From NCBI GenBank assembly GCA_003194525.1, contig NBIV01000001.1:930001-994000 (forward strand): a stretch of DNA of 64,000 nucleotides. The letters are read 5' to 3'. The position numbers and the translations under genes are program-made. The DNA is from Gracilariopsis chorda (lineage: Eukaryota; Rhodophyta; Florideophyceae; Gracilariales; Gracilariaceae). Positions 18,200-41,739 of this stretch are shown in pieces (the first letter of the stretch is position 1; each line of letters opens with the position of its first letter). The notes beneath the pieces are model-generated. The model searched no databases. It saw nothing but the letters and a program-made list of their open reading frames with translations, and was not told the DNA's origin.

Positions 18200-19252
18200 C
18201 TAGTCTACGTAGAAGAGGCTGCTGCGATCTCCTCCACGTCGGAATCGCCGCAAGATCTCTTGACTAATATCGGAATGCACACTAAGCGCAACAGCATCAA
18301 GATCTTCAAAGCGAAGTACATCTTGTTTTGAGGTATCCAAAACGACTTGTGCACTCTCCACGCTGACCTGGTCGGACGTATACTCAGGGTGCGGATTGAG
18401 CACCGGCAATCTAGCGCCCGCGAATTTGAAGATGAATTGCATAAGCTTGGCCGGCACAGGCAGGAAGCGTGCATCGCGCTTAATGGATGTTGAGACGAAG
18501 TCGTACAGTTCCCGAACTGTGAGTACATCTGGCCCTCCCAGTTCTAAAGTCTTGCCTGCAAATCTGTCCGGATCTCTGGCAGCGGCTGCGACAACGCTTG
18601 CAACATCGTTGACCCACACGGGTTGAATTGTGGATTCGCCGTCATTCGCCAAGGGAACAAATGGTAAGCGCATAATGTTGTTGGCCATTCGCGTTAACAA
18701 GCGATCCTCGGAGCCGAACATATCCGTAGGACGAACAATGGTGGCATCGGGAAATACATCTCGTATTACGGTTTCGCCCTCTTTTTTGGTGCGCAGCCAT
18801 TCACTCGAACAGTCTGCAAGCGGGGCGGCGGTGGATACGTGGACGAAATGAGATACTCCCTCCTCGCGAGCAATTTCGGCAAGCGCCTTCGTAGAATGTA
18901 CATGAACGTCTGCAAACTTGTAATTGAGCGTTTCGTAATGCTTTCCGATAAGGTTGATGACGACGGAGGACCCGCGCACACTCTCTCGTATCGATTGTTC
19001 ATCACGCAGTTCAAAAGGAAGAGGAACAATCTGACCGAGATCGCCCATGACTTTGAGGTGACGCGAGTAGAGCTCATCGCCGCGATAGGGGACGGTGAGC
19101 TGGGACCCGATACGTCCAAGATGGTTGACGACATATCGACCGAGAAAGCCGGTGGATCCGAAGACGGTGGCGGCAATTCCGCTAACAGAGGATCTGCCAC
19201 CGCTTCCGCGCGCTGCGAGGGTGGCGGCGGCCACCAAGGTCGTGGAAGCCAT
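18200..19252 (-). CDS. NDUFA9: NDUFA9-like subunit of mitochondrial complex I (atypical SDR)
   Basis: This 350-residue protein matches the 39-kDa accessory subunit of NADH:ubiquinone oxidoreductase, an inactive-type short-chain dehydrogenase fold that binds NADPH in the matrix arm. The nucleotide-binding loop reads ATVFGSTGFLGRYVVNHLG (residues 29-47). VINLIGKHYET and HVSTAAP follow, then IVRPTDMFGSEDRLL, a hallmark of this subunit, and TIQPVWVNDVA. The first 25 residues (Ala, Arg, Ser and Thr, no acid) look like a mitochondrial presequence. The longer frame to 19273 begins with TTG, so the ATG at 19252 is used. The gene is single-exon and divergent from the GT14-like gene. Confidence 0.9.
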   Translation of the reverse strand: MASTTLVAAATLAARGSGGRSSVSGIAATVFGSTGFLGRYVVNHLGRIGSQLTVPYRGDELYSRHLKVMGDLGQIVPLPFELRDEQSIRESVRGSSVVINLIGKHYETLNYKFADVHVHSTKALAEIAREEGVSHFVHVSTAAPLADCSSEWLRTKKEGETVIRDVFPDATIVRPTDMFGSEDRLLTRMANNIMRLPFVPLANDGESTIQPVWVNDVASVVAAAARDPDRFAGKTLELGGPDVLTVRELYDFVSTSIKRDARFLPVPAKLMQFIFKFAGARLPVLNPHPEYTSDQVSVESAQVVLDTSKQDVLRFEDLDAVALSVHSDISQEILRRFRRGGDRSSLFYVD

Positions 19253-19764
19253 CGCTGACGAAGCGGGAAGCAAGCAACGCCAAGCAGCAGGCGGAGACGC
19301 CTGTGGTCACAGTGTGGTGGTGCTGCGAGCACGGCACAGCAACGAGATGGCGCACACACGAGGACACAGCGCCCCGTGTCCACGCGTCCGTGTATGACAC
19401 GTGGATGGGCCACGAAGGTGCCGGCAATGGTGCCATCAGTGCATGTGGCGAGTGCAGCGGGACGCACAAGTGGCCCAATGGGGTGGCGACGGCGTGCTGC
19501 GTGGCAGCGAACGTGTAGCGCAGCAGCCAGCATGGCGCGCGGTGCAGCGTAACTTATGTTTCGAGTGCTCTGCTCGGTTTACAGTGTGTGCGCCGCGTTT
19601 AACGCCCGACTGCCCGTGTTTCCAACAAGCGAACACCCCCTTCTTGGGTCAGACACGTTCGGGCGCTGCCCGTCCAATCCCATCCACATCCGTCCCTCTC
19701 CCCGTCGCGCCCAGTCCATGCCGCTCAGCTCCGACCGCCTCGCAGTACCTCTCACTCTGCCATC
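19253..19764. promoter_or_regulatory. Divergent promoter region NDUFA9 / GT14
   Basis: About 0.5 kb of GC-rich DNA separates the two start codons. Frames run through it on both strands without motifs. No unmistakable TATA box was seen. Confidence 0.35.
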
Positions 19765-21306
19765 ATGGCGCGCATACCGTACCCGCATCAGGAAGTAGAG
19801 CAAATGCCATCCATTCGCCGACTGCGACCAGCACCATCGCCGCATTCAAAGCGCCTTCGCAAACGCTTCAAACGACCTCGTCCGCAGGTCGTCACCATAA
19901 TCGCCTCCATTGTAATTCTCTTCGTCTTTCTCGTCCTCTCCCGTGCCACTCTCTTCACCTCCCAATACACTTTGCTTCCAGAAAGCTCCGACGCTTCCAA
20001 CCCGCTTAACCGCCGTAACTCCAAGTCCGCATCGTCCAACTCGCCTGCGTCGCTCGTTCTGCCTCTGTCGCAACGGCAGCCTGACACGAAGAAGCCCTCC
20101 GAACACACTGTAATTTCCGCAGATGGCTCCGTCTTCTACGTCGACCATCAAGCCTTCACCATTGTGCCATCACAGCGAACACAACCGCTCGCCGTCACAC
20201 GCATGTCGCACATAGTAGGCGATACCGACGCCAAGATAGCCTTCTTCCTTCAGATATCCGACGCAAACATGCCGTTTCTCCCCCGCCTGCTAACAGTTCT
20301 GTGGCACCCTTCAAACGTGTACCTCATCCATTTCGACTATAAAATGGCGCGCGAAAAGACGCACAGCTTTCGACAAAGCGTTGCTCAAAACGGCAAGTTT
20401 TCCAACGTGCATTTTATGCAATCAGAGCATATCACGTATATGGGCGTTTCCATGCTGCTCAACACGCTTTCGGCCATAGAACAACTGCTCAGTATGGACG
20501 ACAGCTGGGACTATTTCATCAACCTGTCCGGGTCAGACTACCCGTTGGTGAACGTGGCCAACATGCGACGCATCCTGGGACAAGCGCACATTGTGGGCAG
20601 GAATGTGACGTTTCTGCAGGTTGCACCCAACAAACAGTTTTGGGTGCGTACCAAGGAAACGCGCTTCAACTACGTGTTCTACGACCCCGCGCTCGGCATG
20701 CAGGACACGCCGTCATCCGAGCTGGTGAGAACGAAGAAAGAGCATCCATCACGCGGCGAAATTGGCATACAGTTTCTTCAGTCCGAGGCATGGGTGATCC
20801 TTCACCGTTCGTTTGCGCGCTTTTCTGTGCGAAGCGCAGTGGCAAGAAAGTTACTGATGCTGCTTTCCATGATGAAAGACCCCGAAGAACACTTCTTCGT
20901 GATGCTAGCGTGGAACGATGCGCACTTCAACAGCACGCTTGCGCACCACGCTTTGCGGGGTATTTACTGGAAGCTGGACGGGAAGAGAAGTGGTCAACAT
21001 CCATATTACATTGACGATGACGTTGAAAACGGCTCTCTGCCGTTTTGGGACCCTGGGGTGGTGCACTCTCGTTGTTTCTTTGCGCGTAAATTCCGGCACG
21101 CGGAGAGCGCGCTGTTGGATCGCATCGATCGAATGATGAGCGGCACGCACGCGGAAGCGGACATGAAAGCGGTGGAAGACTCTCTGATAGCAGTGAAGGA
21201 ATTTGTGGGTTGTTTGGCGAAACGCGATCCGGCATGGGCGGACATTCTTTGGCACCCGCCCTGCAACTACACTGAATATGCGCCGGGGCACAAGCGACAG
21301 CGATGA
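19765..21306 (+). CDS. GT14-family (xylosyltransferase / core-2-I-branching-like) glycosyltransferase
   Basis: This is a 513-residue type II membrane enzyme: a basic tail, one anchor at about residues 42-64, then a Ser/Pro stem. The catalytic domain follows the Branch/xylosyltransferase pattern. It starts AKIAFFLQISDANMPFLPRLL, continues VYLIHFDYKM, contains WDYFINLSGSDYPL, QSEAWVILHR, EEHFFVMLAWN and ends PWDP-like LPFWDPGVVHSRCFFARKF. Family members add xylose, GlcNAc or glucuronic acid to proteins or glycans. The donor is not determinable here. Together with the two preceding transferases it suggests a local group of cell-wall or glycoprotein enzymes, although genomic clustering may be chance. 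Confidence 0.82.
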   Translation: MARIPYPHQEVEQMPSIRRLRPAPSPHSKRLRKRFKRPRPQVVTIIASIVILFVFLVLSRATLFTSQYTLLPESSDASNPLNRRNSKSASSNSPASLVLPLSQRQPDTKKPSEHTVISADGSVFYVDHQAFTIVPSQRTQPLAVTRMSHIVGDTDAKIAFFLQISDANMPFLPRLLTVLWHPSNVYLIHFDYKMAREKTHSFRQSVAQNGKFSNVHFMQSEHITYMGVSMLLNTLSAIEQLLSMDDSWDYFINLSGSDYPLVNVANMRRILGQAHIVGRNVTFLQVAPNKQFWVRTKETRFNYVFYDPALGMQDTPSSELVRTKKEHPSRGEIGIQFLQSEAWVILHRSFARFSVRSAVARKLLMLLSMMKDPEEHFFVMLAWNDAHFNSTLAHHALRGIYWKLDGKRSGQHPYYIDDDVENGSLPFWDPGVVHSRCFFARKFRHAESALLDRIDRMMSGTHAEADMKAVEDSLIAVKEFVGCLAKRDPAWADILWHPPCNYTEYAPGHKRQR

Positions 21307-22065
21307 CAGTGCCGTTGGTGCGTTTGACTTGTCTCTTTTTCTATTTTTGAGTTGTTGGCGAGTGGTGACGCGCCGCTGCTCTCGAGCATTGTGCGGAAAG
21401 CATTTTGCTCTTGCAGCGAAACGGCCACGAGAGCAAAAAACGGCGCAACAACAAAAGAATGCACAAGAACAAACTGCAGAACAAACTGCAGAACAAACAC
21501 GCCAGCACTCGAGCTTTGTCGCATGCTCGACCAAACGATCATAAACAACTGTCCATTTGTGCAGCTCTTTGAGCGTCGGGTACGTGTTTGGTAACAGCCG
21601 CACTATTGGAAGGAAGGTAAGGGTGTGATAAATTTTAGATATGATAATGCAAGCCATCTGAAGATGGAGCTTGTTGGCGCGACGGAGCGTCTATGGGGCG
21701 CGCCTGCGGGGTCGCAACGGCGCCAGTCTCGAGCGCAGATAATACGTCGCCGATAATACGTCAGTGACGGGGCACGACCACGCGGCAAGGCCACTGTGGA
21801 TAGCAAACATGGTGGCACACTACAGTGCACCTGCACGGTCCCATGCGCGCAGCATGCGTTGCGATACCGCCCGATATTTGAAAGGCACCCCAAACGCAAA
21901 AAGCACAGCTCTACGCTACGTATGTGGCACGTTTGATAACTACACGTAACTCTGCCTCCTCCACCACACTCCTGTAACGCAGTCGAGAACCCGAACCCAT
22001 CATAGTAAATGCGCTCGCCAATGCATAACAAAAAAAAAGAGGAGCACACCAAAAACACGTAACGC
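21307..22065. other. Convergent intergenic region with short direct repeats
   Basis: The 0.76 kb between two gene 3' ends carries a 12-base tandem repeat (GAACAAACTGCA) at 21467-21499 and an 11-base direct repeat (GATAATACGTC) twice at about 21738-21763. No coding frame is recognised. Confidence 0.45.
21467..21499 (+). repeat. 12-bp tandem repeat, 2.7 copies
   Basis: GAACAAACTGCA is present twice in full (21467-21478, 21479-21490) plus a partial third copy. It lies 3' of the GT14-like gene. Confidence 0.85.
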
Positions 22066-23553
22066 TCATTTATTGACAACGGGCAAAGTCTCCGGAGCTG
22101 CAACAACTTGCATTGCGCCACTCGTATGCGGCGGTTTGTTATGACCGAGCTCATGAACGGCGCCCGCAGCCTCACTATTGGCATTCGATGAAGACGCCCG
22201 TCTTTCAAATATCGGATTTGCCTCTCTTCTCCTCTTTCCCGGCGGTAAAGCCGCCCGACAAGACACGCACACCGAACGTCTGATGTGATTCTCGGTGGCG
22301 CACTGCTTGCACTCGCGAAACACTCGTGCGCGACCTTTCTTCGGATTGCGCAGATGCACGGGGATGGGCGGACCGTTGCTGCTTTTTCGACGCCTCTTTG
22401 ATCGCCCTACGTTCGACACCGACTTGGGAGAAACGTACGCACCCGCAGCGGCGCTAGTGGCGATTGCACCAGTAGAGCTTGCAATTGGAGGGGAAGGTGA
22501 TGCATGCCACATGATGGAATTGGCAAGTGTCGGCTTGACAGCTGACACGGCTGATGCATTCGGCGGCGAAATATCCTCAGCACTACGCACGTTGGGCTTG
22601 AAGATGGCGGCTGCCTCTGCAGCTTGAGGCGTGCACAGTGCAGAACACTTGAGATTGGGTAGCGTGGCTGTGCTGACTGGTGAGGTGAGAGGGGCTGTTG
22701 GAGCGCTGCATGCTTTTGCGTTGAAACGATGGCGATAAGTGTTGTTATTGGTGCTGCCATAGTTGGTGCCGAATCTGGTCGTGTGGCTGCTGGTGGGCGT
22801 GGTGCTAGTAGCGGTGGTGGTGGCCGTCACAGTGACAGTGGCTGCGCTTGTTACGGGCGTGTGCGCGGGTGCAGCTGCAGCTGCAAGCGGCGCTCTTGGC
22901 TTCTTCAGCGGGTTGGACGCATGCGACAGCGGATGCTGCACGGTGAAGGCAGGGTTGTTGATCCTGGAGGCAAGCAGCGCGTTGGAAGAGTTGACCATGC
23001 CGGTGACCAGGTTGGGATGCATGGACGTGGGCAGCGGCGTGAGCGCGGACGACGCATTGAGAGCATGAGCAAAAGGCGGTTGCAGCGGGGCGGACGGGTG
23101 GTTGGCGGACGTAAAGTGGGTGTGCATGGGCATGACGTGCTGATGCGGGTGCGGGTGGTGCGGGTTGGGCGCGTGTGCGGCCACGGGGTTGGAGGAGGGA
23201 GTAGTCTCCCACGGGTAGGGGGTGGAATTGAGAGGGTGGTTGGAGTGGGAGTTTACAAACGTGCTTGGGGAGTGCGGTTGGGGGTGTTGGTCGACGACGT
23301 TGGCGGGGATGATTGCGGAGGACATGGTTTGGGTGAAGTGTTGTTGGTGGGCGTTTGGGTGTTGGGCTGCGGCTGCGGCGGCGGCGGCGGCTGTTGCTGT
23401 GGCGAGTAGCGGTTGGGCTGAGGGAGTGCTTGCGTTGCTGTTGTTGTTGGTGGGGGTGGTGTTGTTGGTGGTGTTTGTGTTTGTGTTTATGTTGGTGTTG
23501 GTGTTGGGGGGGGGTTGGTGGGGGGAGACTAGGGAGTGGATGTTGAATTGCAT
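22066..23553 (-). CDS. Low-complexity protein with C-terminal CxxC...CxxC zinc ribbon
   Basis: This is a 495-residue protein made largely of Asn, Thr, Ser, Pro, Ala and His runs, suggesting a disordered nuclear or RNA-associated factor. The only folded element visible is near the C-terminus: a basic stretch RSKRRRKSSNGPP, then CKQC-x10-CVSC at residues 415-432 with C415, C418, C429 and C432, and the trailing LPPGKRR. This arrangement resembles zinc ribbons in RanBP2-like and small DNA-binding proteins. The Arg/Lys clusters on both sides could act as nuclear localisation signals. The start is the ATG at 23553. The open frame extends to 23970 but is Pro-rich and unlike protein. Function is unknown. 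Confidence 0.6.
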   Translation of the reverse strand: MQFNIHSLVSPHQPPPNTNTNINTNTNTTNNTTPTNNNSNASTPSAQPLLATATAAAAAAAAAQHPNAHQQHFTQTMSSAIIPANVVDQHPQPHSPSTFVNSHSNHPLNSTPYPWETTPSSNPVAAHAPNPHHPHPHQHVMPMHTHFTSANHPSAPLQPPFAHALNASSALTPLPTSMHPNLVTGMVNSSNALLASRINNPAFTVQHPLSHASNPLKKPRAPLAAAAAPAHTPVTSAATVTVTATTTATSTTPTSSHTTRFGTNYGSTNNNTYRHRFNAKACSAPTAPLTSPVSTATLPNLKCSALCTPQAAEAAAIFKPNVRSAEDISPPNASAVSAVKPTLANSIMWHASPSPPIASSTGAIATSAAAGAYVSPKSVSNVGRSKRRRKSSNGPPIPVHLRNPKKGRARVFRECKQCATENHIRRSVCVSCRAALPPGKRRREANPIFERRASSSNANSEAAGAVHELGHNKPPHTSGAMQVVAAPETLPVVNK

Positions 23554-24001
23554 GGTGTGTCTGGAGAGGGGGTGGAGAAGATGCGATGGGGGATGGTGCG
23601 GATTGGAGTTTGTGGGGGGTTGGACGTATTGGGGTTTGCGTGGGGATGGCGGAGGAGGGGTGGCTGGTGGTCGAGGAAGGAGAAGGCGCGATCCATGGGG
23701 AAGACGACGGCTGCAGGTGATGGTGGAAGGTTGTTCGATGGTGGTGGTGGTGGTGGTGGTGGGGCTTGGCGCTTGTGAGGGGGCGGGGGAGGCGGGTTTA
23801 GGGGGGCGGTGCGGGGGTGATATGGCGGGGGGCGTATTGAGTGGATGAGCTGCGCGCGCGCGCGGCTGGCGACTGCCACGCGCGCGCGCCACGCGCTGGT
23901 GTGCGCTAGAAGGCTCCTCATTCCGGGATGGGCACTTGCGCTTCTTTTTTTTTTTGGCAGCGCGCGCCACTGCGCCATGGCGCCTCTTGCGCTCAGCGGC
24001 A
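23554..24001. promoter_or_regulatory. Divergent promoter region, zinc-ribbon gene / FPPS
   Basis: The 0.45-kb region between divergent starts contains a GT-rich tract and CG alternations (CGCGCGCG at about 23850-23890) and a T run at 23943-23955. It is expected to hold both promoters. Confidence 0.35.
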
Positions 24002-25180
24002 ATGTGGCGCGTGCGCTTTGCGTTTGGAGCCGCCTGTCGTCGCGCTGCGCTTTCGCTTCGTGTCGCTCCGCCGTCTCGCTGCCATCACCGCGCGCTGCGT
24101 CCAACGCCCGTTCCCCGCGCTATGGGCCTTGACGCCAACGCCGCCGCTCCCTCCTCCGCCTTCAAGCTCCTCTTCCCGGAGATCGTCGACCACCTCTTGG
24201 CCGATCTCCGTCAACACTATGACCTCCCTTCCGAAGCCATCCACTATATCCGCCATAACCTCACGTACAACGTGCCGCACGGCAAGCTCAACCGCGGGCT
24301 CGCCGTGCATGAATGTTACCTCGCGTTTTGCGCCCGTGAGCACAAACCCACCGCCGCGCAGCTGCGGCAGGCGCATGTGCTCGGATGGTGCGTGGAGTTA
24401 TTGCAGGCGTTTTTCCTCGTTGCCGATGACATTATGGACGATAGCCACACCCGTCGTGGACGTCCGTGTTTCTTCCGTCTTCCCAACATCGCCATGAACG
24501 CCATCAACGACGCCATGATTCTTGAAATGATGATATACCGCCTTCTGCGCTCTCATTTCGCCCATCATGCGGCGTACCCGCACCTCGTGGAGCTGTTTCA
24601 TTCCATAACGTACACCACTGAACTGGGCCAGTTGCTCGACCTGACCACCTCTCAACCGGCCGATCACGTGCTTCTGCACAAGTTCAGCGAGGATGCGTTA
24701 CGCCGAATCTACCGCTACAAAACGTCGCACTACACTTTTTACCTGCCCGTGGCGCTCGGTATGCGTCTGGCGGGCGTGTGCGAGGCGCACAAATACGACA
24801 CCGCAAAGGACATGTGCATGCACATCGGCTACTACTTCCAGGCTCAGGACGATTTCTTGGACGCGTTTGGAGATCCGCAAGTGACGGGCAAGATCGGCAC
24901 GGACATTGAGGACAACACGTGCACGTGGCTCATTGTGCGCGCGCTGGAACGCTGCTCCGCCGACGATCGGAAGCTTCTGGAGCGCCATTACGGAAAGAAG
25001 CACAAGGAAAGCTCGGATCGGGTGAAACAGCTTTACCGAAAACTGCAGCTGCCGTCGTTATTTGCGCAGTTTGAACAAAGCAGTTATGAAAGGCTGTCGG
25101 CTCGGATTGGTGCCATCGATGACATGCCTACCGCCGCGTTTGAGTTGCTGCTTTCCAAGTTGTACAAGCGGAACAGATGA
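24002..25180 (+). CDS. FPS: Farnesyl diphosphate synthase, possibly two start sites
   Basis: This enzyme condenses IPP with DMAPP and GPP to farnesyl diphosphate for sterols, quinones and prenylation. Counting from the ATG at 24122 (352 residues), VPHGKLNRGL is followed by the first Asp-rich motif DDIMDD at 102-107 and the second DDFLD at 243-247. The two Phe just before the first motif (QAFFLVADD) are those that stop chain growth at C15 in eukaryotic type I FPPS. An in-frame ATG at 24002 adds 40 residues rich in Arg and Ala with no acidic residue, typical of a mitochondrial presequence. Short and long isoforms from one gene are known in Arabidopsis FPS1, so dual targeting is plausible but inferred. 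The gene is single-exon. Confidence 0.9.
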   Translation: MWRVRFAFGAACRRAALSLRVAPPSRCHHRALRPTPVPRAMGLDANAAAPSSAFKLLFPEIVDHLLADLRQHYDLPSEAIHYIRHNLTYNVPHGKLNRGLAVHECYLAFCAREHKPTAAQLRQAHVLGWCVELLQAFFLVADDIMDDSHTRRGRPCFFRLPNIAMNAINDAMILEMMIYRLLRSHFAHHAAYPHLVELFHSITYTTELGQLLDLTTSQPADHVLLHKFSEDALRRIYRYKTSHYTFYLPVALGMRLAGVCEAHKYDTAKDMCMHIGYYFQAQDDFLDAFGDPQVTGKIGTDIEDNTCTWLIVRALERCSADDRKLLERHYGKKHKESSDRVKQLYRKLQLPSLFAQFEQSSYERLSARIGAIDDMPTAAFELLLSKLYKRNR

Positions 25181-26251
25181 GTATGTTATGTTTGCACTTT
25201 TTACAAGTAAACGAGCTGGCGTCATTTGGTGTTGTTGTTAACAGCCACCCAATGCGGACAACGGCAACAGCGCACGTGGGCAGTGTCGTGACCATTCACC
25301 CGTCACCAGATGTGAGCACATCACCAAACTGACGGTCATAGCGCAGGTGATGAACGCTCGCCAGAAAAGGCGTAACCGTTTTCCATTGTGTCAACCGGCC
25401 CTCATTTGTGATTCACATGGCGAAGCGACTCATTTGTGCACACGGCTCGCTTGCATATCGACAAGTGGAGTTGTTTTTTTTTTACCTGCCTTTTTTAAAA
25501 CAAACACTCGCTGAAGGTAATAACAATGCCAGCTCAGCGGGCGCGCACCTCGGCGCCGGTGGATGACGGCTGGGCGGAGGGGAAGAACGCGTAACGCTGC
25601 GCTGGAGGGGGTGGTTACAAAGATTAGAGGCGGGCGCTATTCCGCGGGTGGCAAGCGTTCAACGCGCGCAGCTGTGCAGGATTTGTTATCACGTTTGGGG
25701 CCGCACACCGGCGCGCCACCCGAACATGAGGTCGGTATGAAAAAAACACTTGGATGGAGCTCACCGCCGCGCACAGCGCGTGTATGTATGAGCGTATTTT
25801 TAACCACTGCGCACGCCACAGCGCCGCCGTTCCGCACATTCTAAAAATCTACAAATGCGCGCTGCCACCAATTCAACCGCCGTATCCACTAAAACTGTTG
25901 TGCGCCCCTGTCATACGTTGCTGCCTGTATGAGAGCGCGTTGTACCTCCTGTAACCTTAATCTGCGCGCTTCTTTTTGGTTGGAGCAAACAACGCTGCCC
26001 CATTTCGTCTCCCGTTTGAAACAAAATATCATAGCAACGCACGTCCAGCACCACGCATCTCCAGCGCCAGCGCTGATTTAAGCTTCTCGAACAATAACAG
26101 CTTGCTCTCGCACTCAATAGGCTACATACTCGTGAGCAACAGTTACCGTTGTACCAACGGTACAACACCTCGCCGATTGTTAAACAAACCGCAATCCTAC
26201 TTACGAGCACCTGCTTTCTTTCTCTCCCTATTCCCCTTCGCACAGTCGGCA
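25181..26251. other. Intergenic region, no gene recognised
   Basis: About 1.1 kb after FPPS. A T run lies at 25474-25483 and a GC-rich patch with short frames at 25540-25720. A compact palindrome cluster at 26144-26165 combines ACCGTTG-TAC-CAACGGT with GTTGTACC-AAC-GGTACAAC. None of the frames is protein-like. Confidence 0.35.
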
Positions 26252-26471
26252 GCTACTGCAACAACTGCCATACACCTTTATAAGCACTGTTCTTCTGTAC
26301 GCTCCATAGTCTCCCCTCCTTCTGCACCTAACTCGTCACACTTGTTGGTAAAGCGAACGAATGGTGGCAAGTCCACCCAACGGACGCAACGGCGCACATC
26401 CAACCCGCATCCAACCGATTCAAAATGCAGTACACGCCACCTTCACCCCAGCGGTCGCCATGTCTGTTTCA
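26252..26471 (+). repeat. Direct repeat copy A flanking the Uma2-like segment
   Basis: About 220 bases closely similar to 28466-28687 in the same orientation. Alignment by eye starts at GCTAC...TGCAACAACTG and ends at TGTCTGTTTCA. Copy A lacks about 10 bases and carries about 13 extra bases relative to copy B. Fourteen of roughly 23 substitutions are C here and G in copy B. Confidence 0.85.
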
Positions 26472-26764
26472 CCATTGCCTTCTCCCACTGTTCAACGTCC
26501 TCGTTGAATCCTTTCACTTTTCACCCCACATCGTATAGCATAAACCATGTACAGCACAAATTGTTTCACGTTATCGCCATCATCACACCTCATTCGCTCA
26601 TAAAACGATGATAATTGCATACCACCAAATGCACTCAAAACATCATCAACTTCTTGCACCGCCTCCGGCCCCCTCTAGCAACACATTGTATTCCTTCTCA
26701 TAAAGTTGAACAATGTCTCCGCATGAACACACACGCTTGAGCGCCCACAAATTTTTCTTCGGTA

Positions 26765-27490
26765 CAAAACATGGCTCCCTCCTTCGAAACCTCTGCTACA
26801 CTTAATGCATCGCACCACCTCCTGTGCCCTGTCCACGAACGTAAACAGCCCCAAAGAGCAACGTGCAAGTCTTCGCTGCGCCTCTGCGCATTCAGCCACG
26901 CTTCATTACGAGCCTTCTCGCAACGCTCAAACTTGCCTCCGCAGCACATCACAGCGCCCCTGCTTCACATCAACACACCCTGCAGCGCCACAACGCCTTC
27001 CCCGGAAGACAACACAGCTCCCTCTCTCGGAGCCTCAGTTCCACTCAATTCATCGCAGCACGTCCCGTGCCCTGGCCACGAATTGAAACACCCTCACGGG
27101 ATACAAACAAGTCTTCGCAGCGCCTCTGCGCCTTCGCCGATACACCACCAGCCTTCTCACAAGGCCGAAACATACTTCTTTTCGCAGGATTCATAGAGCT
27201 GCTGATTCCCATGAACAGGCCCTGTTGTGACGTCATGACGCCATCCCCGGCAGACAAAAAGGCTCCCTATCTCGAAACCGCACGTATACTAAATACATCG
27301 CTGCACAACAGACACATGCCCAACAAGAGACCCAGTTCGCTGTCAGTCCACAAATTCCCAATTTCCAGCAGTTGGCGTCTGCATACAGATGAGTATGCCG
27401 CCAAACGGCCAGTTCGCCACCTTCCACAAGTGCACATGCCAAACGTGGCTCTCTTTAAATTGCAGACTCTGTCCTTTATCACTGCGTCGT
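26765..27490. repeat. Degenerate tandem array, three units of about 240 bp
   Basis: Three units begin near 26765, 27005 and 27247, each opening with a variant of ACA-GGCTCCCT-TCTCGAAACC. They share CTTCG-GCGCCTCTGCGC about 110 bases further on, and unit 3 decays after about 120 bases. The 240-bp period equals 80 codons. On the minus strand units read FERCEKARNEAWLNAQRRSE and FRPCEKAGGVSAKAQRRCED in corresponding places, suggesting remains of a repeat protein, but stops interrupt that reading. Plus-strand frames are open but low in motif content. The source family is not recognised. Confidence 0.6.
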
Positions 27491-28321
27491 AGCCCCATGA
27501 TTCGCTCAGCCCTGTTCACAGGGGCACCTCGCCCTTTCATGTTCAAGAGCAGCAGTACATCTCACACCTCTGGACTGAGGCCCGGGCCAAACAACGGGCA
27601 AGCCGCCATTGCAATTGCGCGTAATGTCCTTCGCGAAGTACAGTCTTCCGTAAATCATCAAGGCATGGAAAAGACGCTCTCTCCAGTGGCCTCCTCGGGT
27701 GCGCTGGGTTGCGTTCTTGCCAACGGGCGTTCACCCGTGATGAACACTCTTAAAAACTTTCATCTTGAGCCTCATAAGTGTGAAGGTTTGACTGTGGATG
27801 AATACCATGAGCTTATCGAGAGCGGATTTTTGGACCATGTTCGTGGCGAGCTAATCGACGGCTTTTTCATTCAGATGCATCCTCAATGCGTTGAGCATGT
27901 CGCCACGTTGTCTTTTCTCTTTAGGACACTGTTCAAAGATCTCGAAAATCGTGCAGTCATTCGCGACTCAAAACCAATTACGCTCATGAAATTGAAGTCG
28001 GAACCAGAACCTGATATTGTCATTGCATCGGGAGTCGACGACGATTATAACACTCGTAATCCTTCACCGAGTGACGTTTTGTTGGTTGCCAAAGTGTCAA
28101 ATTCCACCCTCAAGAAAGACAGCACCATCAAACTTGAGGAGTATGCATTGACTGGTATACCCGAGTACTGGATAGTCGACATCAAAGCCCGCAACGTTCA
28201 AGTCCTCCGGAAGCCTCAAGGAAACTGTTACGAGTCTAAAGTAACGGTTTCGAGTGGCTTCATAGCCCCTGCTGCCTTCCCGGACGTCAGCATAAGAGTT
28301 CAAACCTTGTTTCGCTCTTGA
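27389..28321 (+). CDS. Uma2/DUF820 family PD-(D/E)xK nuclease-like protein
   Basis: This 310-residue frame carries, in its last 180 residues, a domain of the Uma2 (DUF820) type, a restriction-endonuclease-like fold very abundant in cyanobacteria. Visible marks are LTVDEYHELIESG, RGELIDGFFIQM, SEPEPDIVIASG (the Asp of the PD motif, codon 28013-28015) and KLEEYALTGIPEYWIVDI. The strand that normally carries the catalytic Glu (E-V-S/D-S) reads AKVSNS, with Lys encoded at 28091-28093, so catalysis may be lost. About 130 residues precede the domain. ATGs at 27389, 27497, 27539 and 27666 are all possible starts, and the segment after 27497 could be an organelle targeting peptide. The gene lies between two direct repeats. 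Transfer from a bacterium or the plastid ancestor is inferred. Biological role is unknown. Confidence 0.78.
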   Translation: MSMPPNGQFATFHKCTCQTWLSLNCRLCPLSLRRSPMIRSALFTGAPRPFMFKSSSTSHTSGLRPGPNNGQAAIAIARNVLREVQSSVNHQGMEKTLSPVASSGALGCVLANGRSPVMNTLKNFHLEPHKCEGLTVDEYHELIESGFLDHVRGELIDGFFIQMHPQCVEHVATLSFLFRTLFKDLENRAVIRDSKPITLMKLKSEPEPDIVIASGVDDDYNTRNPSPSDVLLVAKVSNSTLKKDSTIKLEEYALTGIPEYWIVDIKARNVQVLRKPQGNCYESKVTVSSGFIAPAAFPDVSIRVQTLFRS

Positions 28322-28390
28322 ACAAGCGTGAGCTCATCGCTATTTGATACTGCAGTACGCGGCTGGCTTTCTCTCGGTGCGGCCAAGCCC

Positions 28391-28453
28391 TCCTGGCTGT
28401 CGCTAGGCTTTTCTCCATAGCCTCCACGACCTTGCACGACCGAGCAGCCAGGA
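28391..28453. repeat. Inverted repeat 3' of the Uma2-like gene
   Basis: Nine-base perfect arms TCCTGGCTG (28391-28399) and CAGCCAGGA (28445-28453) enclose 45 bases that contain a further small AGGCT/AGCCT pair. It lies between the Uma2-like stop codon and repeat copy B, and could be a transcript 3' hairpin or an element end. Confidence 0.55.
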
Positions 28454-28465
28454 GAAAATTAAGCG

Positions 28466-28687
28466 ATGCTACAAGTGCAACAACTGGGATCTACCTTTAT
28501 AAAGACTGTTCTTCTGTACGGTCGATAGTCTCCCCTCCTTCTGCAGCTAACCCTTTAACGCGTCACAGTTGTTGATAAAGCGAACGAATGGTGGAAAGTG
28601 GACCCAACGGATGCAACGGCGGAGATCCAAGCAATTCAAAAGGCAGTACACGGCACCTTGACGCCAGCGGTCGCCATGTCTGTTTCA
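28466..28687 (+). repeat. Direct repeat copy B flanking the Uma2-like segment
   Basis: Partner of 26252-26471, about 2.2 kb downstream in the same orientation. In copy B a frame of about 50 codons stays open across the repeat (including NEWWKVDPTDATAEIQAIQ) until a stop near 28740. In copy A the extra bases shift this frame. I do not recognise the peptide. It may be a relic of a gene or element end. Confidence 0.8.
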
Positions 28688-30236
28688 GTTACGTACCGTT
28701 GCACAATATGTATGCTCATTCTTTTTTTAATATCATAAACGATTACCTGGCTGTTTGTAAATTACATGTTGTTCTACCCTTAGCACGAATTGGATACACA
28801 TTACGGACCGTTTAAACATATCAATTACCCATAAAGCTGTACCCATTACCAACAAAACTGCTCCACGCTCATACCTCCTGATAAGGGTTAGCAATCTAAC
28901 CCTTGAAGCATTAGAATACAGGTAAGGATAACCATCTGTGCACACTTGTGCAAAAGCTCCTGTAATTTCACGTCTTTCCGCCACCCACATAAATTTGAGA
29001 GAGCTTATCTGCTACGCATGCATTCGTTTCGTGTCAATGCCCGCCATGCAGAAACACGTTCATAGAGTTTTTTTCTCTGCAGCCAGTATTGGAAACAATG
29101 TATCTCAGCAGTATCTATCATATCCTACTCATAGATGAGTTTGGGCTAGGCGTACCCAACATCAGATTTCGTGTGAGCTGTCTAACTTTTAAAGGATAAC
29201 CGTTTAACCCTATTATGATACCGTGCTCGTGTTCTTCTTTCAATAACGCGATCGCTTTTCAAGTGCAAAACAAAGATACATGACCCAACGTGTCATCCAC
29301 TCCCAAAGATAATGTATCAAACTTTTTTGCAGCAACAGCCGTCACACCAACCCTGTATCTTTGAGGGTGATTCCGACCCACATTTGTTTGTTTGTTTAGC
29401 GCGCTTTGTGTCGCTCGGCAACCGAACAATACGCTCGTTGAAAACGGCATGGCACTCACCGTCAAGGGGGTTTGCTGGCAGACTGTAGTCCGACACCTCC
29501 AGTGCCACGGTTCCACGCTGCTGCCTCACCATAGTGACAACGATGACGCTTTCAAATCGACAAGAAAGCATCTGTCGTCAAGATTAAATCTTGTGGCCCT
29601 GAAGGGCGCAATCAATCTCGATGATCCACGAGATTCCAACCAAGCACAACACACATCCCAAAAATGTTTTAAAAAAAACTAAGTTTTAGATCCGTTCCGT
29701 ATCCGGTGCACCATCGAATACAGTCACAAAATAAAACAAACCATCTAAACGGCTAACGTCTATCCTACACCGTACAAAGAAAAGACCAACACATGCTCCT
29801 GTAATCTCCCAAGCTTCTCCCAGCCTTCAAAAGTAGTGTGATCCGACACGACTATCACGGCATTGGCCCATGTTTTAGAAAAAGAACCACCTTGCAGATA
29901 GATGAGGTACAGCGGAAATGCTATGAAGATACAGGGGCATCCACTTCACTTGCCCTCGAAAAGGTCATGGGAACATACATGTACGATACAAGAACACAGC
30001 AAATTGACCTAAAAAGTCATTCAACCCGCTCATACATCTATGCCGCTATACGCACATTCGTATTGGGCTCCACAACAGCTCTAGACGTTGCGTCCCGATT
30101 TCAGAATGCATCCTAGTCCAAATGCATGAAGGCAGGCGTGAAAAGGACATGAAACGACGGATGACTTGTAGCCGACTGACAAAACATATAAAAGCAGAAG
30201 CAGAAAGCCCAAAAGAAGAAAAGAGGACAGTGAACA
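28688..30236. other. AT-rich convergent intergenic region
   Basis: About 1.5 kb between repeat copy B and the 3' end of the sigma-factor gene. Base composition is clearly more AT-rich than in the flanking genes. Only short unremarkable frames are present. Confidence 0.4.
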
Positions 30237-31281
30237 TCATATCAGCTCAGCCCAGTTAGACACATCTTCAGTGACAACCTCACGCAACTTATTGAGAGCG
30301 CGGAGTTCAGCACGTTTGACTGTGTGCACACGAACGTCAAGAATGCGGCTCACTTCAGCACGCACTCGTTCAATACCATCACCAAGTCCATACTTCAACC
30401 ACAACACGTTTCGTTCGAGCTCCTCCAGTTCGGTACTTTGCACAAGTTCAGCAACAGCCTCCCTTGTACACATGCTCTCAACATGACGGGACACATCGAC
30501 AGAATGATCAACAAGAAAGTCGCGCAAAGGTGGTGCATCACGTTGGGAGTGGCGATGTATAGGTGTATCAATACTCCACAAGGAGCGACTTCTCTGGATG
30601 TAGAGCTTGGCAGCTTCTCTATCCACTTGAGCTAACTGCGCTACTTGGGAGAGACTGACGGGTTTACCATTCGCAATTTGCAACTGGTGGCGGACGGTTC
30701 GGATCTTGGAGAGTTTATTCAGCACGTGGACAGGCAAACGAATTGGCCTAGCCTGGTTCTGAATGGCTCTGAGGATGGCGTACTTGATAGAATAAAAAGC
30801 GTACGAATCGAAAGGCTGGCCCCTTGAGGCATCAAAACGCTCGACGGCTGTGATCAAGCCGCAGACTCCCTCCTGAACGAGGTCGGACATGGAGAGAGCG
30901 GGCGCGGCCTCGGGAAAGGCGGATAGGAAAATCTGGTGGGTCTTGCGGGCGACGGCGTACACAAGCCAGAGCCATTTGACGACGAGCTGGTTTCTTTGTC
31001 GAAGAATGAGATGCCAGTCGTGTGGGGGGAGGGGGTTGGTTCGACTTGCATGCAGCATTACGGCATGGGCGTTGGGCTCTCGCCGGGTCTTCCGACGCAG
31101 ATGCTTGCGCGCGGCGTAGAGGTGGTGCAGGTTTGCGGTGAGCAAGGCGGGGGGGAGGGCGGAGCGGGATGCGAGGGGGAGGGAGCGGATCGCAGACGGC
31201 GCGATGTGGATTGTTTGGCAGTGCGCCGGCGCGGCGGGTCTGCCACGGCGACGGGGGGGGGAAGGAGAAGGCCAAAGCCAT
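30237..31281 (-). CDS. Sigma-70 factor, presumably nuclear-encoded plastid sigma, with apparent frame break
   Basis: This protein directs the bacterial-type plastid RNA polymerase to promoters. Region 2 is clear: SDLVQEGVCGLITAVERFD, then the RGQPFDSYAFYSIKYAILRAIQ stretch. Region 3 (LPVHVLNKLSKIRTVRHQL... PVSLSQVAQLAQV) and region 4 (ERNVLWLKYGLG, TVKRAELRALNKLREVV) follow to the C-terminus. The sigma frame runs upstream to 31367 but its first codon there is TTG, and the first in-frame ATG lies inside the protein (about 31060). An ATG at 31281 opens a peptide MALAFSF, Phe-containing and acid-free, in another frame. The two frames meet at a run of nine C (minus strand, 31261-31253), where one base fewer would join them. 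So either the homopolymer is mis-sequenced, or the start is unusual, or the allele is broken. Confidence 0.82.
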
Positions 31282-31805
31282 GGGTAGCAGAAGAGAGAAA
31301 CGGAGGTGGGGAGGGGCCAGGTGGGGTGGAAGGGCGGAGGCGGGGAGATATGGAGGAGGAGGCTCAAAGGAACGGAGATGGAGAGTTAAAGGGCGGAGAA
31401 CGGGAAAAAGACGAAAGCGCTGTGTGGGGCCGACCGGCGTCTGAACAAGACGCACGTGCGCGCGGCCAGCGTGGCGCTTATTGTGCGCGGCGGTTCCGCC
31501 GCCACTGCGCCAAATGCATCCACGTGGCAGACACGGCGCGTATCGGCCAATGGGCGTGCAGCGCGGCGGCGGGACAGGTGCGGCCATCCGCCGCCGCACG
31601 CGCGTCAGATTTGCGCTTGCGCACCACCATGTCCGAAACGCAACTTTCTCGCCATTGCTGCGCACTGCGGCGCCTAACGCCTCCAGCGCCACCAATCCGT
31701 GCCAACCGTTCATGCAGTTCGAAGAGAAGAGCTCCTCCTTAACTTTACGTCTAGTCTACGGCATCCTACTCAAAATCATAAGACTGCTACCGTTGTCTAC
31801 CATCA
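31282..31805. promoter_or_regulatory. Upstream region of the sigma gene / 3' flank of the helicase gene
   Basis: About 0.5 kb of GC-rich DNA between the sigma start region and the helicase stop codon at 31806. Long frames on both strands are Arg/Ala/Pro-rich composition effects with no motif. Confidence 0.35.
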
Positions 31806-34800
31806 TTAGCGCCGTAGCTCCTCCAGAGTTACCTCAATGCCCAAGTGCTCAAGCTCGGTGCCCAGGCACTCCAACGCCCGCTTCTGCACATCACGCTCCT
31901 CCTTCTGAAGCCTCTTAACGATCAGATTCTTCTTCCGTACGGCGTGATACTCCGCAAACCTTTTCCACGTCGTGTACGCCTCTCTCCCATATGGATTGCA
32001 CTTTATAACATGTGTATGCACGTCGCCACGACTGTGGTGTTCCACGCACCACGCACAGAAATTCACAAAGCATTCTCTATTTGCACATGGCAACGCACAA
32101 CATCCATCAAAGTCAATAAACGCCACATCGCACTTCGGACAACGAAGCGTCAGAATCCTTTCAATCACATGCAGTCGCAGCTGTTCCGCCCTCCGTTGCG
32201 TCCGATCTGCAATATTTTGAATGCGATCAAATTCCGCTTTCAGTTGCTTCTTCTGTGCATCCAACGCCCTGTGCATTTCCTGGTCCGCATACCGCTGCAT
32301 GCGTAACTCCTGTAGCGACTGGAACATCGCCTTCAGTTCATCCTCGTTAGCGTCGTGCTTCTGCTGTAGAAGCAGAAGAGGTTCATACCTAGAATCGCAC
32401 TTGTCTTCCGGGCATCGCACATATCCTTCTGCATCAACGCTACGTTTCAGAGAGCCGGGCGCCTTCGCAGCCTCCACTAGATGAATAAAGCATTCTCGAC
32501 ACACAAAGTGCTCCTTTGCACAGCACCATCCCTTCGCAGCCACCGTGTCATCCAGGCATATTCCGCAAGCTCGGTGCAGCTCTACCTCAATCTTCATTAG
32601 CGGGATAACCGCCCCTGGTTTCCAGTACACCCGTTCGGAGTTGTCATCTGTCTCAGACCGGTAAACATGGTCATAGCCTTGACATTCGTAATGCAATTTC
32701 AACAGTCTCACACGCTTCATCATGCTGGCCTTTGCCTCTCTGTTCAGCCCCTCCTGCCGAATTTCTTCTGCCGACAGCCTGAATGGCGGTACTCCACACA
32801 AAGCCTTGCTTCTTAGCGCTGCACCAACGTAAACGGTAAGTAATCCATCTTCTTCGCGTTCTTGCCACCGAGCAATTAGCTCTTTTGTACAAAACGGATG
32901 GCCAACCACCCCCGATCCGTGCGACGTCCCCACCACACTAAAGTTCTGCGCCACGGTTTCCTCATGCATCTTGGTCGAAGAGCAAATAATATCGTAGCAG
33001 TTGTCCGCGTCAGTCACATCAAGTACCTTTTCAGGTACTGTTACCTCTTCACATCCATCTTTTATTGCCTTCGACACCATATCTAGTTGCCGCTGCAGTA
33101 CATCTATGTATGCACGTAGAAGAGACGCATCATCAGATAGCTCGACATAGGACGCTGATTTCACGCTTCCCTCACGCAGCACGCTTGTTGCCCGACTAAT
33201 CAGATTCGCCTTCAACACGTCACCATCAAAAACTCTTCCCGGTTCTTTAGAGTCGTACTTCTCAGAGCATTCATTCAACATAGTCCGAGCGCGGTTAAGT
33301 GCCTCTTTGTATCTTTCTCGTATACAGGACAAGCATGACTCAGTTTCCAGCTTAGTCTTAGCCTTCTCTTCGCCACAAGTCCAACTGATACCATGCCCAC
33401 AAGGAAGTTGGGCAGAAACTTGCCGTCCACAGACAATTACCTCCTTGAAGCACTCGACCTTAACAATGTTGATATCACAGAAAGTGCACTTTTTCTCTAC
33501 TACATTCTCACACACGAAAGGAGGAGACTCATCACCAAGTCTATTGCAGGGAACAGAAGCATTGCGTCCACAGTCGTTGCACGTGATTGTTACGCTCTGG
33601 TCGCAACCCGATTCCAATGCGGTAAAAATCGCTCCACATTTGACATCTTCTTCATGGCCACATGACCGACGCAGGCGCGTGGTTTGTCCGCACTCCAGTA
33701 AATCGAGCTCGGAAGACCAAACAGGAAGCCGTCCATCCTGAACCACGACTGGGGATGTAATTGGTGCTTCACCATCAGCATCTATGGTAATACGCTGTGG
33801 AGGCAACTCATTCCATGGATGCAGAGAATCGATGGTTTTTCGCAGATTGCAAGCAATCTTCACAATATGTTGGCAGAGAGGTGATCTCACTTGTATCTCT
33901 GTGCGACATAGGGGTGTTGTGTCCGGCGATGCAGCCCACTTGAAGGCAAGGTTGCATGGAATATTACTTTCCTCATGGCCACACAGCCGTCTGTATGATA
34001 CTCGTTCATTGCAGGTCGTAACTCCTGGTGCGGACTCACTATATCCGCCACTTGCCTCCACAACAAGCGGGTCTCCTTTAGCGTGAAGCCTACGCCCAGC
34101 TAGCTCTCTTGTCACATTCGGCTCCAGATGACATGGTACTTCCACGGTGTGCGAGCAGCGAGCACGGACACAAGTTAAGATAGCCTTACACTCGGAGTAT
34201 TCCAGACCGCGCAACTGTTTAAGTTCATCGCATGTTCGTGGTCGAACAGAGTGACCATACTTGCACGACGGGTATACATACATATCTTCGTTTGGCTCAT
34301 CGCACTTAGGAGCAGGATCTCCCTGTTTATGACATTCAATTTTGTATACATGACCGCAAGGCCTTTTCAGATTCACGATTGTCTCACATAGAGGGAATAC
34401 CTTCGAATTCAACATTGAATACAGCTGCTTGCAAGGAATCCTTCCTGTACGATGCCCACAGATCCTGAGAACGGAAAAAGTACCATTACACGCACGGCTT
34501 ACTTTTTTCAGCTTTGGCTGTAGTTCGGGTGCGTCCTTGAACGTCCTTTCATACCCAATCCTCTCTACATATCCAGTTTCGTCGTCAAACGAATCAAATA
34601 GCACAGAGGAGGAGAAATCCTCAATCATTTGCCTAAAGTGACATGGAACTTTGATCCGATGTCCGCATAACGAACTGCGTAATTCTATTTCCTCAGTGCA
34701 AGAACTTTCATCCTTCGCACATTTTGCCTGTAGAAACGCAGTTGCGCAAGGAATCATGGTGGTGTGACCACACGACCTTCTATATTCTGTCTTCACGAGA

Positions 34801-37800
34801 CAGCTAGGAAAGTTCTTGTCCAATCGCTCTGGTATCCTCATGCCAAGATCTGTTTCTGAAGGCCCGTAATCTGTACCATAGACGACAGTAGACGTTTCTG
34901 CAAGACCTGCTCCATCCTGTTCGATCCAAAGACTTCGAAGTACGGCAGATTCAAAACAGCGAGACGACAGTGGATGCGAGCATCGTGGCCGTGGTTTAAG
35001 TACAGCTGCTTGGCACAAAGGTGGTGGAACCAAAGAGTGCTCTTCAACACTTTGATGGCATTGCATACGCATTTTGCATCCACAAGGTCTCACATGATCA
35101 ACCATCTGGCGACAAAGCGGAGGAGTTTTCTCCCAAGCACGTCGAACGTGACAAACAGGTGTCTGTCGGATATGTCCACATGATGGATGCACATAATCAT
35201 CTACGATTTCCTTACATTCTGGCAGCCGTAGGTTCCCAGAGAGTGTTTGTTCGTGATCATAACAGCTGAGTTCAACCGGATGAGAACACTCAGGACGGAA
35301 GTATCGGACCTTAACTTCGCAGCGAAACTCCTCAAGGGCATTTGTCAAGGACGTAGCTGCAGATTTGTCAGAATGCTTAACTTGGTGGCAATGTAAAGGA
35401 ATATCTGCATGGGAAACACAAGGCCTCTCCACGAGAACAGAGCACTTTGAGGTATGCGGCGTATCCTCAGAAGAGTGACACAATTGCTGACAGATGTGAC
35501 CACACCACGAGAGTTTGAATGGACAACCGTTGGTGCAGAATGCCTTAAACTTATCTTTCGTAGACGGAAAGTCGCCGATATCGCTAATGTCTCTAGCCAC
35601 ATTTGGATGGCGTGGGCATGATATCGGTAGCTTACTTCCAATGCGAGGCGAATGCTCATTGAGGCCGTCGTGGTCGCATTTTTTGTCTCCACCTCCACAA
35701 GCTTCAAGTTCTTTCAAACACCGGCGCCAATGTGAGGGACCAGGGCTGCCTTTAGTATTCGTAGATACAGCCTTTGAAGACCCAACAATGTAGAAGCCAA
35801 TGCGTGCACGAGAAGCGCACACTACGAAGCGATTGCGTAAGGCAACGAATCGATTACCAGGCCTAGTCGACACCAATGACAGAACAACGATGTCATTTTC
35901 ATCTCCTTGATATCGGTCGACAGTAGATACGTTAATGTTCATGATTCTATTCACTTTCCCGTGCACTGCGCGCAGCTTCTTCAGTATTGTCAACCTTTGT
36001 CCCTTGTATGGAGTAATAACCGAGATACAATTTGGAGGTACACCGCAGTACACAAGCCATTGGCAAAGAGAAACGCAGGCCGCTGCTTCTTCTAGATTAC
36101 ATCGGGAAAGTCCTACTGCAGCTCGTCCTTCTTGCGTTTGAAGATCCCAGAAGAAAATAGGAGACCTGAGACCAGGAACGTTGCTCCCCTCCCCAGCCCA
36201 TAGGGTTCTCTCTCGAGAAAATGCTGGCGGGGCATCTGCCAATCGGTCTCCGATTCGTTGAGAAATAGTACAGTCATGGTCTTCAATTGCAATTAAATCA
36301 TGATACTCAACCCGAGTCAAGTCGCAGATGGTTGGACGCATTCGCCGTTGAATATCTAAGATGGAGCAGACAGAGGAATCGTTCTTGACGAGCCGTTCAA
36401 AGAGCGACACCTTAATCGATGGGTCTGTGGTTTCCATTGGGAACCAACAAGGCTGCACAAAAGCTGGTAGTTGGCGATGGTCACCAATCAGTTCGAGCTT
36501 GCAAAGGGAGCGCACTGCTAAGACGGATATAAGGGTTGGCTCGAGGACTTCACAGGCTTCCTCTACCACCATAGCGAACGGTTCTGAAGCACGTAAGGCA
36601 TTGAGACGACGGGCAGCTCCTACTACTGTTGCTCCGATTACCCTAGCCCGCTTGAATGAATACGCTGCTGTCTCTGATAGTTCACGCCTTGCGCACTCAA
36701 CATGGGCGTCCGCAATTGCTGCGTACTTACAAATAGTGGCGCACATCATGCCCAGAAAGTTTGAAACATGAAGCCATCGCTCCCATTTTGAGTGATCCCA
36801 GCTCCAATCAATAGACGCATCGAAAATGTTGTCCCCATTCTCTTCGGTACGTAAGACACCAAGTTCGATGTAAGACTCATCTGAATCAGAGGCACTAGCT
36901 GAGCCGCCATCAAATATGTCACGAAGGTGTTGCATTTGATCCGCTATCTCATCCTCATTTGATCCTGATGAACTTGACATGGCATCAAGTTCATCCTGAT
37001 CTATGCCAAACGCAAGGCGTTCATCTCCAGCATTGAAATCATCGGAACTCTCTGATTGTTCAAATGAGCAATCTCCATGCAATGATTCTCCAAAGTCTGA
37101 ATTAGAATCGTTTCTTTCATCTTCTCCACCTTTAGCCAATCCTTGCGTTCTCTGATTGAGAGACATTTTTCTTGAGTCCTTCTGAAGAGTGTCATCTACT
37201 ACAGATACGTTTTGCGGGACATCAACGGTCCTGCAGTCTTCGATATTCAGCACAACATCTAATCCAGTACTAGACTTAACCTTTGAGCCAGAAATGCCCT
37301 CACTCCCTGAGTCAGTATGCGGTGCTGAGTCAGTATGCGGTGCTGAGTCAGTATGCGGTGCCATGGAAACTTCTACTTCACAAGTAATTGGATCTTCCTC
37401 GTCCAATTTTGTCGTAGAAGCAACCTCTTCTGTTTTCTGAGAATCCTTTTTCTCTCCAGTTCTCATCCATTCTGTGCTCTCCCAGAATAAGTGCTCCATG
37501 CCTTTCATATCGTCTTTGGGTTCTTTGTCTTCTGAAACGGCCTCATGCATTTGACCTATATGGGCAAGACAGTAAAAAACAGGTTGGAAGGAAATCTCTT
37601 TTGTTCTGCATCTTCTTCCTTTAGTTGTCAAACCCTCGCATTGCATTCTTATTCCTTCTCTTCCGAGAGTAATGTTATGCTGATTGAGTTGATTAAAGTG
37701 TTGGTCGCAGAAGTTAGAGCTGAAAGAGCAGACACGCTCATTACAGGTGCTACCATCTGGAGAAACACTGCTGCAAAGAGGATGAAGCGAGCAAACGTTT

Positions 37801-41666: not shown

Positions 41667-41667
41667 T

Positions 41668-41710
41668 GTTGCGCCAGCGCGCTACACACTGTGTAGCGCG
41701 CTGGCGCAAC
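41668..41710. repeat. 43-bp palindrome upstream of nitrate reductase
   Basis: Two perfect 21-base arms, 41668-41688 and 41690-41710, flank a single central C at 41689. The left arm begins GTTGCGCCAGCGCGC and ends TACACA. It would form a very stable cruciform or RNA hairpin. It sits about 330 bases before the nitrate reductase ATG and about 240 before its TATA box. Confidence 0.95.
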
Positions 41711-41739
41711 AGCAGCAGCTAGCGCAACAGCAGCAGCTA
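41704..41739 (+). repeat. 18-bp tandem repeat, two perfect copies
   Basis: The unit GCGCAACAGCAGCAGCTA occurs at 41704-41721 and 41722-41739. The first copy begins inside the right arm of the palindrome, so the two structures share the GCGCAAC string. Confidence 0.95.

Follow-up and report, generated by a model that had tools for sequence, protein, structure and literature searches.

A retroelement in Gracilariopsis chorda records a regional, one-way process of G-to-C substitution

A small retroelement in the genome of Gracilariopsis chorda carries, toward one of its ends, the record of a real and regional process in which G has been replaced by C in one direction only. The element lies within a stretch of 64,000 nucleotides, here called the window (contig C1:930001-994000 of a 91.3-Mb assembly in 1081 contigs), which is eukaryotic in content. 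A sequence-only reading of the window had drawn attention to two direct repeats, copies A and B, whose differences are dominated by C/G transversions, and had proposed a specific, strand-oriented mutational process. Such a process is indeed supported well beyond chance (Fisher p=3.8e-18 over 26252-27286), but its scope is larger than had been supposed, as it spans a region of 1 to 1.7 kb and not the repeat alone.

The two copies are the LTRs of a single non-autonomous LTR retroelement, 2.4 kb long, with the following features:

26252..26256: left target-site duplication GCTAC, 5 bp; its right counterpart differs by one mismatch
26257..26471, minus strand: copy A, the 3' LTR, bearing the one-way G-to-C changes
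26722..27304: diverged tandem units within the element, offset by about 244 bp (self-match of 26973-27306 to 26729-27061, 71%)
27389..28321, plus strand, antisense to the element: 310-aa ORF with a Uma2 (PF05685) nuclease-like domain (Pfam E=5e-26)
28463..28474, minus strand: tRNA-Met primer-binding site adjoining copy B, 11 of 12 bases matching
28476..28687, minus strand: copy B, the 5' LTR, with no G-to-C excess (0/41)
28688..28692: right target-site duplication GTTAC, 5 bp

With GCTAC just ahead of copy A and GTTAC just after copy B, the two are read as LTRs from a single insertion; the bounds of the sequence-only reading took in the 5-bp target duplication at A and the primer-binding site at B. 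The LTRs end in TG...CA, and in an oriented alignment of 28 rows the full copies mostly start with TGCAAC and finish with TTTCA. A search with the 220-bp repeat gave 38 matches genome-wide, and exact 5-bp duplications surround three solitary copies (ATTAC at L004, GGCAT at L002, and AATAC at L006). The primer site, compared with the 3' end of tRNA-Met with CCA added, matches at 12/12 positions in one other copy of the element (L059) and at 11/12 in the window; the tRNA-Met genes (L063-L065) were found by a pattern search and confirmed with ARAGORN, and are presumably of the initiator type, judging by their A1-U72 pair. The position of this minus-strand site beside copy B indicates that the element reads leftwards, making B its 5' LTR and A its 3' LTR. 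Judged by ORF length, no gag-pol reading frame is present on the strand of the element, where the sole ORF of at least 80 aa encodes 84 aa (26698-26952). Short LTRs and the lack of a long ORF on their own strand are typical of terminal-repeat retrotransposons in miniature and other non-autonomous LTR elements. The element resembles these in its short LTRs, tRNA-Met primer site, 5-bp duplication, and want of a long own-strand ORF, and differs from them in carrying an antisense gene with a Uma2 domain, which recurs in six other copies. The tandem units of about 244 bp also produce cross-matches to several of the other copies.

The asymmetry between the two LTRs is robust to the way in which they are aligned. 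The sequence-only reading had counted about 23 substitutions, 14 of them C in A and G in B with none reversed, which is essentially right: a multiple alignment limited to the LTRs gives 24 substitutions, comprising 15 sites with C in A and G in B and 9 others, together with 19 gap columns. The figure varies with the alignment and the ends used, being 16:0 in a pairwise alignment over the earlier bounds, with their few flanking bases, and 14:0 in a BLAST comparison of the LTRs proper (p=1.2e-4). Among the 23 other rows of the alignment, G is more frequent than any other base at 12 of the 15 sites (at one of them by only 11 G to 10 A), and it is therefore copy A that has changed from G to C. At two further sites C is nearly fixed in the other rows, indicating a C-to-G change in copy B, and the last site is polymorphic (5 G, 15 C). 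Every other LTR copy has C at no more than one of the 12 G-to-C sites; the scattering of C/G states, polarized both ways among other copies, that might have undone the original observation was looked for and is absent.

Beyond the LTRs, substitutions were polarized by aligning 16 of the 62 loci (L047-L062) to the window and scoring those window bases that were covered by three or more other copies, with agreement among at least 80% of them. This delimits the following stretch, shown along with a broader one defined by composition:

26252..27286, plus strand: polarized stretch with G-to-C changes at 43/170 sites and C-to-G changes at 2/287
25804..27568, plus strand: C-rich, G-poor tract in which C makes up 67.5% of G+C, against 49.9% outside it

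Within the polarized stretch, the one-way excess is that of the Fisher test given above, and the other changes of G are rare, with G-to-A at 3/170 and G-to-T at 1/170. The remaining classes are ordinary (A to any other base 15/253, T to any other base 5/209, and C-to-T 7/287). The G-to-C rate is 10/41 in copy A and then 15/28, 5/30, 10/37, and 3/34 in consecutive segments of about 200 bp, dropping to 1/66 at 27301-27900 and, as listed for copy B, to nil. The excess hence reaches about 0.8 kb past copy A into the element and fades by 27.3 kb. As a control, each of 14 other copies was taken in turn as the focus, with the window excluded and a minimum of 150 usable sites (100 in the case of LTR B) required; their sum is G-to-C 21/1251 and C-to-G 29/2029, and the highest single G-to-C counts are 5/163 (L051) and 3/82 (L053). 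An all-against-all comparison of the window and 24 loci points the same way, in that among 102 comparisons scored all those with a C/G asymmetry at p<0.05 include part of 26252-27286, one of them extending to 27887. A strong G-to-C excess is found in one insertion only. Apart from a 45-bp self-match at 41667-41711, the sole other repeat between the window and the compared loci is 52825-53549, which matches L059 at 95%; considered as a second natural experiment, it was set aside because its C/G differences of 6:2 carry no information on the process.

These counts bear on several simple explanations. Chance is ruled out by the polarized counts and the control with other copies, and a property of the element family is rejected because the other copies examined lack the excess. 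Hypermutation during reverse transcription is disfavored, since LTR B is clean and the skew runs outside the element.

The bounds of the C-rich tract are those of the best-fitting interval in a two-level scan of 25200-28459. By composition, the head of the tract lies about 0.45 kb outside the element, which marks the process as regional. The skew changes sign at about 25.80 kb, from 47 C and 75 G at 25500-25699 to 66 C and 40 G at 25800-25999. The outer 0.45-kb flank is single-copy, so that G-to-C changes there are not polarizable; when sorted by the base that follows, its C/G ratios (A 3.8, C 0.9, G 7.0, and T 1.7) are similar to those inside the element (A 4.2, C 1.3, G 3.3, and T 2.3). The flank may share the history of the stretch next to it.

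A parallel is suggested by the beginnings of genes elsewhere in the window. From the 26 ORFs of at least 200 aa that start with ATG, 19 were picked by eye as predicted genes, with the ORF start serving as the gene start; those dropped as overlapping or antisense were 8994-9596, 18766-19533, 20905-21657, 22729-23409, 30832-31713, and 31011-31742, and the Uma2 ORF at 27389-28321 was also dropped from these tests. In the 19 ORFs, C/(C+G) at fourfold sites is 0.69 in the first 150 bp and 0.41 beyond 1.5 kb, and the mean (C-G)/(C+G) is about +0.20 from -250 to +500, about 0 by +750, and negative upstream of -250. The coding strand of these window ORFs thus carries an excess of C past the start that fades within about 1 kb. 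There are 53 further 200-bp windows with an absolute skew above 0.3; in 30 of these the C-rich strand is the strand of an ORF and in 5 it is the opposite one, where a match denotes an ORF start within -400 to +1000 and about 21% would be expected per strand; at an absolute skew above 0.4, 20 of 28 match and 3 are opposite. At least 18 of the 53 have no ORF start in range on either strand. Part of the 5' bias in C3/G3 could reflect codon selection. Judged by its composition, the tract at 25804-27568 looks like one more such gene-start zone, headed by a putative plus-strand start; no plus-strand gene near 25.8 kb is evident in the sequence.

Taking these observations together, we propose that a 5'-proximal, transcription-linked zone of G-to-C mutation crosses the element, with chemistry of the REV1 type, and we hold this proposal as a whole to be somewhat likelier true than false. 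The LTRs would have been identical at insertion, and the insertion would have placed the 3' LTR (A) within a zone of plus-strand G-to-C (minus-strand C-to-G) change, a few hundred bases from its edge. From then on, roughly one in four G of the first kilobase would have turned to C, perhaps gradually, with an effect fading with distance, and LTR B, 2.2 kb further on, would have lain outside the zone. The zone would most likely belong to a plus-strand transcription unit starting at about 25.8 kb and form its 5'-proximal part; we read it so because tracts with this sign and size of C-over-G skew tend, in the window, to coincide with ORF 5' ends on the coding strand. Cytosines of the transcribed strand, with a preference for TpC, would turn into abasic sites, and C would then be inserted opposite these by a REV1-like polymerase. 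The assignment of the stretch to gene-start mutation is probable, and the abasic-site/REV1 chemistry is a lead to be followed. Counting against the proposal is the lack of the C-to-T changes that usually accompany deamination, which would appear here as G-to-A.

The sequence context of the changes is what points to this chemistry. On strict polarization, G has changed to C in 25/49 cases before A and in 17/113 cases otherwise (p=4e-6), and in 27/71 cases after a purine as against 12/83 after a pyrimidine (p=0.001). Between two pyrimidines the change is nearly lacking (1/45), and G with a purine on either side is the hottest (17/29). Viewed from the minus strand, this is C-to-G change favoring TpC and pyrimidine neighbors, and the stretch at 26252-27286 accordingly shows one-strand C-to-G change in TpC of the kind known from the APOBEC-type signature SBS13. 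In GG, the 5' G has a low rate (4/27) relative to G before A (26/58), which counts against one-electron guanine oxidation. The WRC context of AID is not favored (G before C 7/64, G before T 6/38). The pattern fits the bypass of abasic sites by REV1 better than guanine oxidation, a preference based on the G-before-A bias and the near lack of G-to-A and G-to-T. Of the mechanisms named by the sequence-only reading, then, cytosine loss with REV1-like bypass is favored by the context, and guanine oxidation of the one-electron type is not. Its suggestion that a deaminase supplies the damage fares less well, as the near absence of G-to-A is odd for such an enzyme and the TpC context is not replicated in other tracts: the 53 other skewed windows show no such preference (Spearman -0.17, p=0.52, 16 trinucleotide contexts), and at fourfold sites the near/far effect, taken before A and compared with other sites, is nonsignificant (1.53, bootstrap interval 0.87-2.47). 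The other skewed zones may be near saturation, which would make this context test weak, yet it lends no support. Profiles of the AID/APOBEC families (PF08210 and PF18778) have no match in the genome, in searches whose controls likewise gave matches in 0 of 14 genomes, and PF00383 has 8 genome matches, with the deaminase class unassigned.

The confinement of the changes to one strand over about 1 to 1.7 kb, with a TpC context, would befit a single clustered event, in which single-stranded DNA exposed in break repair underwent deamination, on one strand, followed by bypass with C, transcription being uninvolved. Such an event, arising in resection or break-induced replication, would amount to a shower like kataegis or the human maternal C-to-G clusters, and the available part of a study of human start sites does liken their SBS39 C-to-G changes to maternal mutation clusters (PMC12658150). 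We nonetheless think this unlikely, given that C-to-T is almost lacking and that the position and sign of the tract follow the general 5' skew of ORFs, which a single event does not predict. Moreover, known strand-coordinated showers are far sparser than the density seen here, with 25% of G changed over 1 kb. The chances appear smaller again for oxidation of guanine on the nontranscribed plus strand, which would be single-stranded in the transcription bubble and outside the reach of transcription-coupled repair, with mispairing then converting G to C. The strand is correct for this if transcription runs rightward, and ionization potential partly predicts both the hot G flanked by purines and the near immunity of G flanked by pyrimidines; but in GG the 5' G should be the most oxidizable and is instead low, and G-to-T, the main product of 8-oxoguanine, is seen once in 170 sites.

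Minus-strand lesions at dipyrimidines, photodimers or others, would, if bypassed with C, account for the mutated minus-strand C nearly always having a pyrimidine neighbor (the 1/45 being the exception). We consider them very improbable, as UV mutations are mainly C-to-T, which would appear as the scarce G-to-A, and as coupled repair should spare the transcribed strand. Hardly any more credit can be given, and if anything slightly less, to gene conversion or a chimera with an unsampled C-rich copy of the element. Copies of the family do seem to swap modules, with Uma2 domains at about 50% protein identity set in flanking DNA at about 90%, but long matches to the tract within the genome reach only about 85%, short ones (33-135 bp) reach 86-97%, and, with the other LTR copies nearly devoid of C at the 12 sites, a C-rich donor was not found. 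The extension of the skew past the element already contradicts this explanation. An error of assembly or base calling is scarcely credible at all, since one-way, context-dependent, and graded changes running into unique DNA resemble no known sequencing error.

Two well-known systems offer instructive comparisons for the gene-start reading. The SBS13 signature of APOBEC enzymes, including kataegis, consists of strand-coordinated C-to-G change in TpC along with much C-to-T, and hypermutation by AID with UNG and REV1 decays over 1 to 2 kb from the promoter, likewise with much C-to-T, and prefers WRC. The stretch in the window shares with SBS13 its strand coordination and TpC context and with AID a decay from the proposed start; it differs from both in being almost free of C-to-T-type change, and the WRC preference is not seen. 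Plants and fungi have been known for two decades to favor C over G at gene starts, a strand bias whose cause was inferred from composition (PMC555766). In the portion of that paper available, Fujimori et al. (2005) report C over G on the coding strand at the gene starts of Arabidopsis and rice, with no significant AT skew, and the bias in plants and fungi and not in animals and protists; they speculate about raised G-to-C transversion at starts and call for studies of substitution patterns (PMC555766). Our ORFs show the same coding-strand bias as their plants; unlike their compositional inference, the substitutions here are polarized against paralogous copies, which gives direction, rate, and context (PMC555766). 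In unicellular fungi, fourfold sites are C-biased at the 5' and G-biased at the 3' ends of genes, and C-to-T has been argued against; that study, as far as its available text goes, leaves mutational and adaptive causes open with unpolarized substitutions, which are polarized here (PMC3315797). A human germline hotspot at start sites includes SBS39 C-to-G and has been tied to R-loops, polymerase stalling, and mitotic breaks (PMC12658150). It resembles the process proposed here in being start-proximal and germline and in including C-to-G, and differs in its mixed spectrum with C-to-T and T-to-C, SBS39 contributing about 10% near the start according to the available portion (PMC12658150). Among the open-licence papers surveyed, in part by title and abstract opening, none announces a polarized demonstration of the start-site G-to-C skew beyond the inference of Fujimori et al.

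A transposon with one LTR inside and the other outside a biased zone constitutes a natural mutation-accumulation experiment, and the present element records the G-to-C substitution itself, together with the direction it took, its rate, its reach, and its context. Should other insertions agree, any skewed genome with young repeats could be used to dissect the process, and low-complexity proteins rich in Pro, Thr, Ser, and His may partly be by-products of mutation. One bolder possibility, which we advance tentatively and regard as improbable, is a standing germline hypermutation at the 5' ends of genes, in which C of the transcribed strand, TpC first, becomes G almost without C-to-T via REV1-like bypass of abasic sites. 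If true, this would be a germline process with the geometry of somatic hypermutation, its abasic sites coming from a deaminase or DNA glycosylase. Acting on genes in their thousands, it would account for the C-over-G skew that plants, fungi, and algae show at gene starts.

Two genes in the neighborhood of the element could be assigned by Pfam:

23936..25180: polyprenyl synthetase
30237..31367: sigma-70-type factor, with region 2 above the cut-off and region 4 below it

The presence of the sigma-70-type factor suggests a plastid. Divergent from the polyprenyl synthetase ORF is a 634-aa ORF on the minus strand (22066-23970), which is of low complexity and rich in Pro, Thr, Ser, His, and Asn; its coding strand is very poor in G, with a skew in plus-strand terms of up to 0.75, and the same mutational bias may have given rise to its composition. 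A minus-strand ORF of 3147 aa (31806-41249), which by eye we take to encode a helicase-like protein with NF-X1-like cysteine-rich repeats, has a weak 5' bias in C3/G3 over its first 1200 codons. The coding strand of another minus-strand ORF (10505-12463) becomes G-rich toward its 3' end (C3/G3 15/44 and 12/38), matching the pattern reported for fungal genes in the available text of that study (PMC3315797).

Relatives of the Uma2 ORF were found at nine further loci, in seven of which the main match contains no stop (among them C20, whose match is split over two frames); the match on C37 has stops, and that on C29 is fragmented. The domain is flanked by two LTRs in the window copy, L052 (C20), L048 (C169), and L053 (C29), and lies beside one LTR match in L059 (C23), L062 (C69), and L051 (C37), keeping the same relative orientation in all these LTR-associated copies; the remaining relatives are on C46, C18, and C70. 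Differences between the Uma2 ORF and its C20 relative fall 14/7/24 over the three codon positions, hinting at some constraint. The domains of C1 and C20 share only about 50% protein identity with most other copies, against about 90% for the neighboring DNA, and two diverged versions of the domain hence occupy otherwise similar elements. Finally, nine copies of an LTR fragment lie on one contig (C266:34084-77605; L025-L030 and three more) at eight intervals, seven of about 4.8 kb and one of about double that length, which suggests a long tandem array that has captured the LTR.
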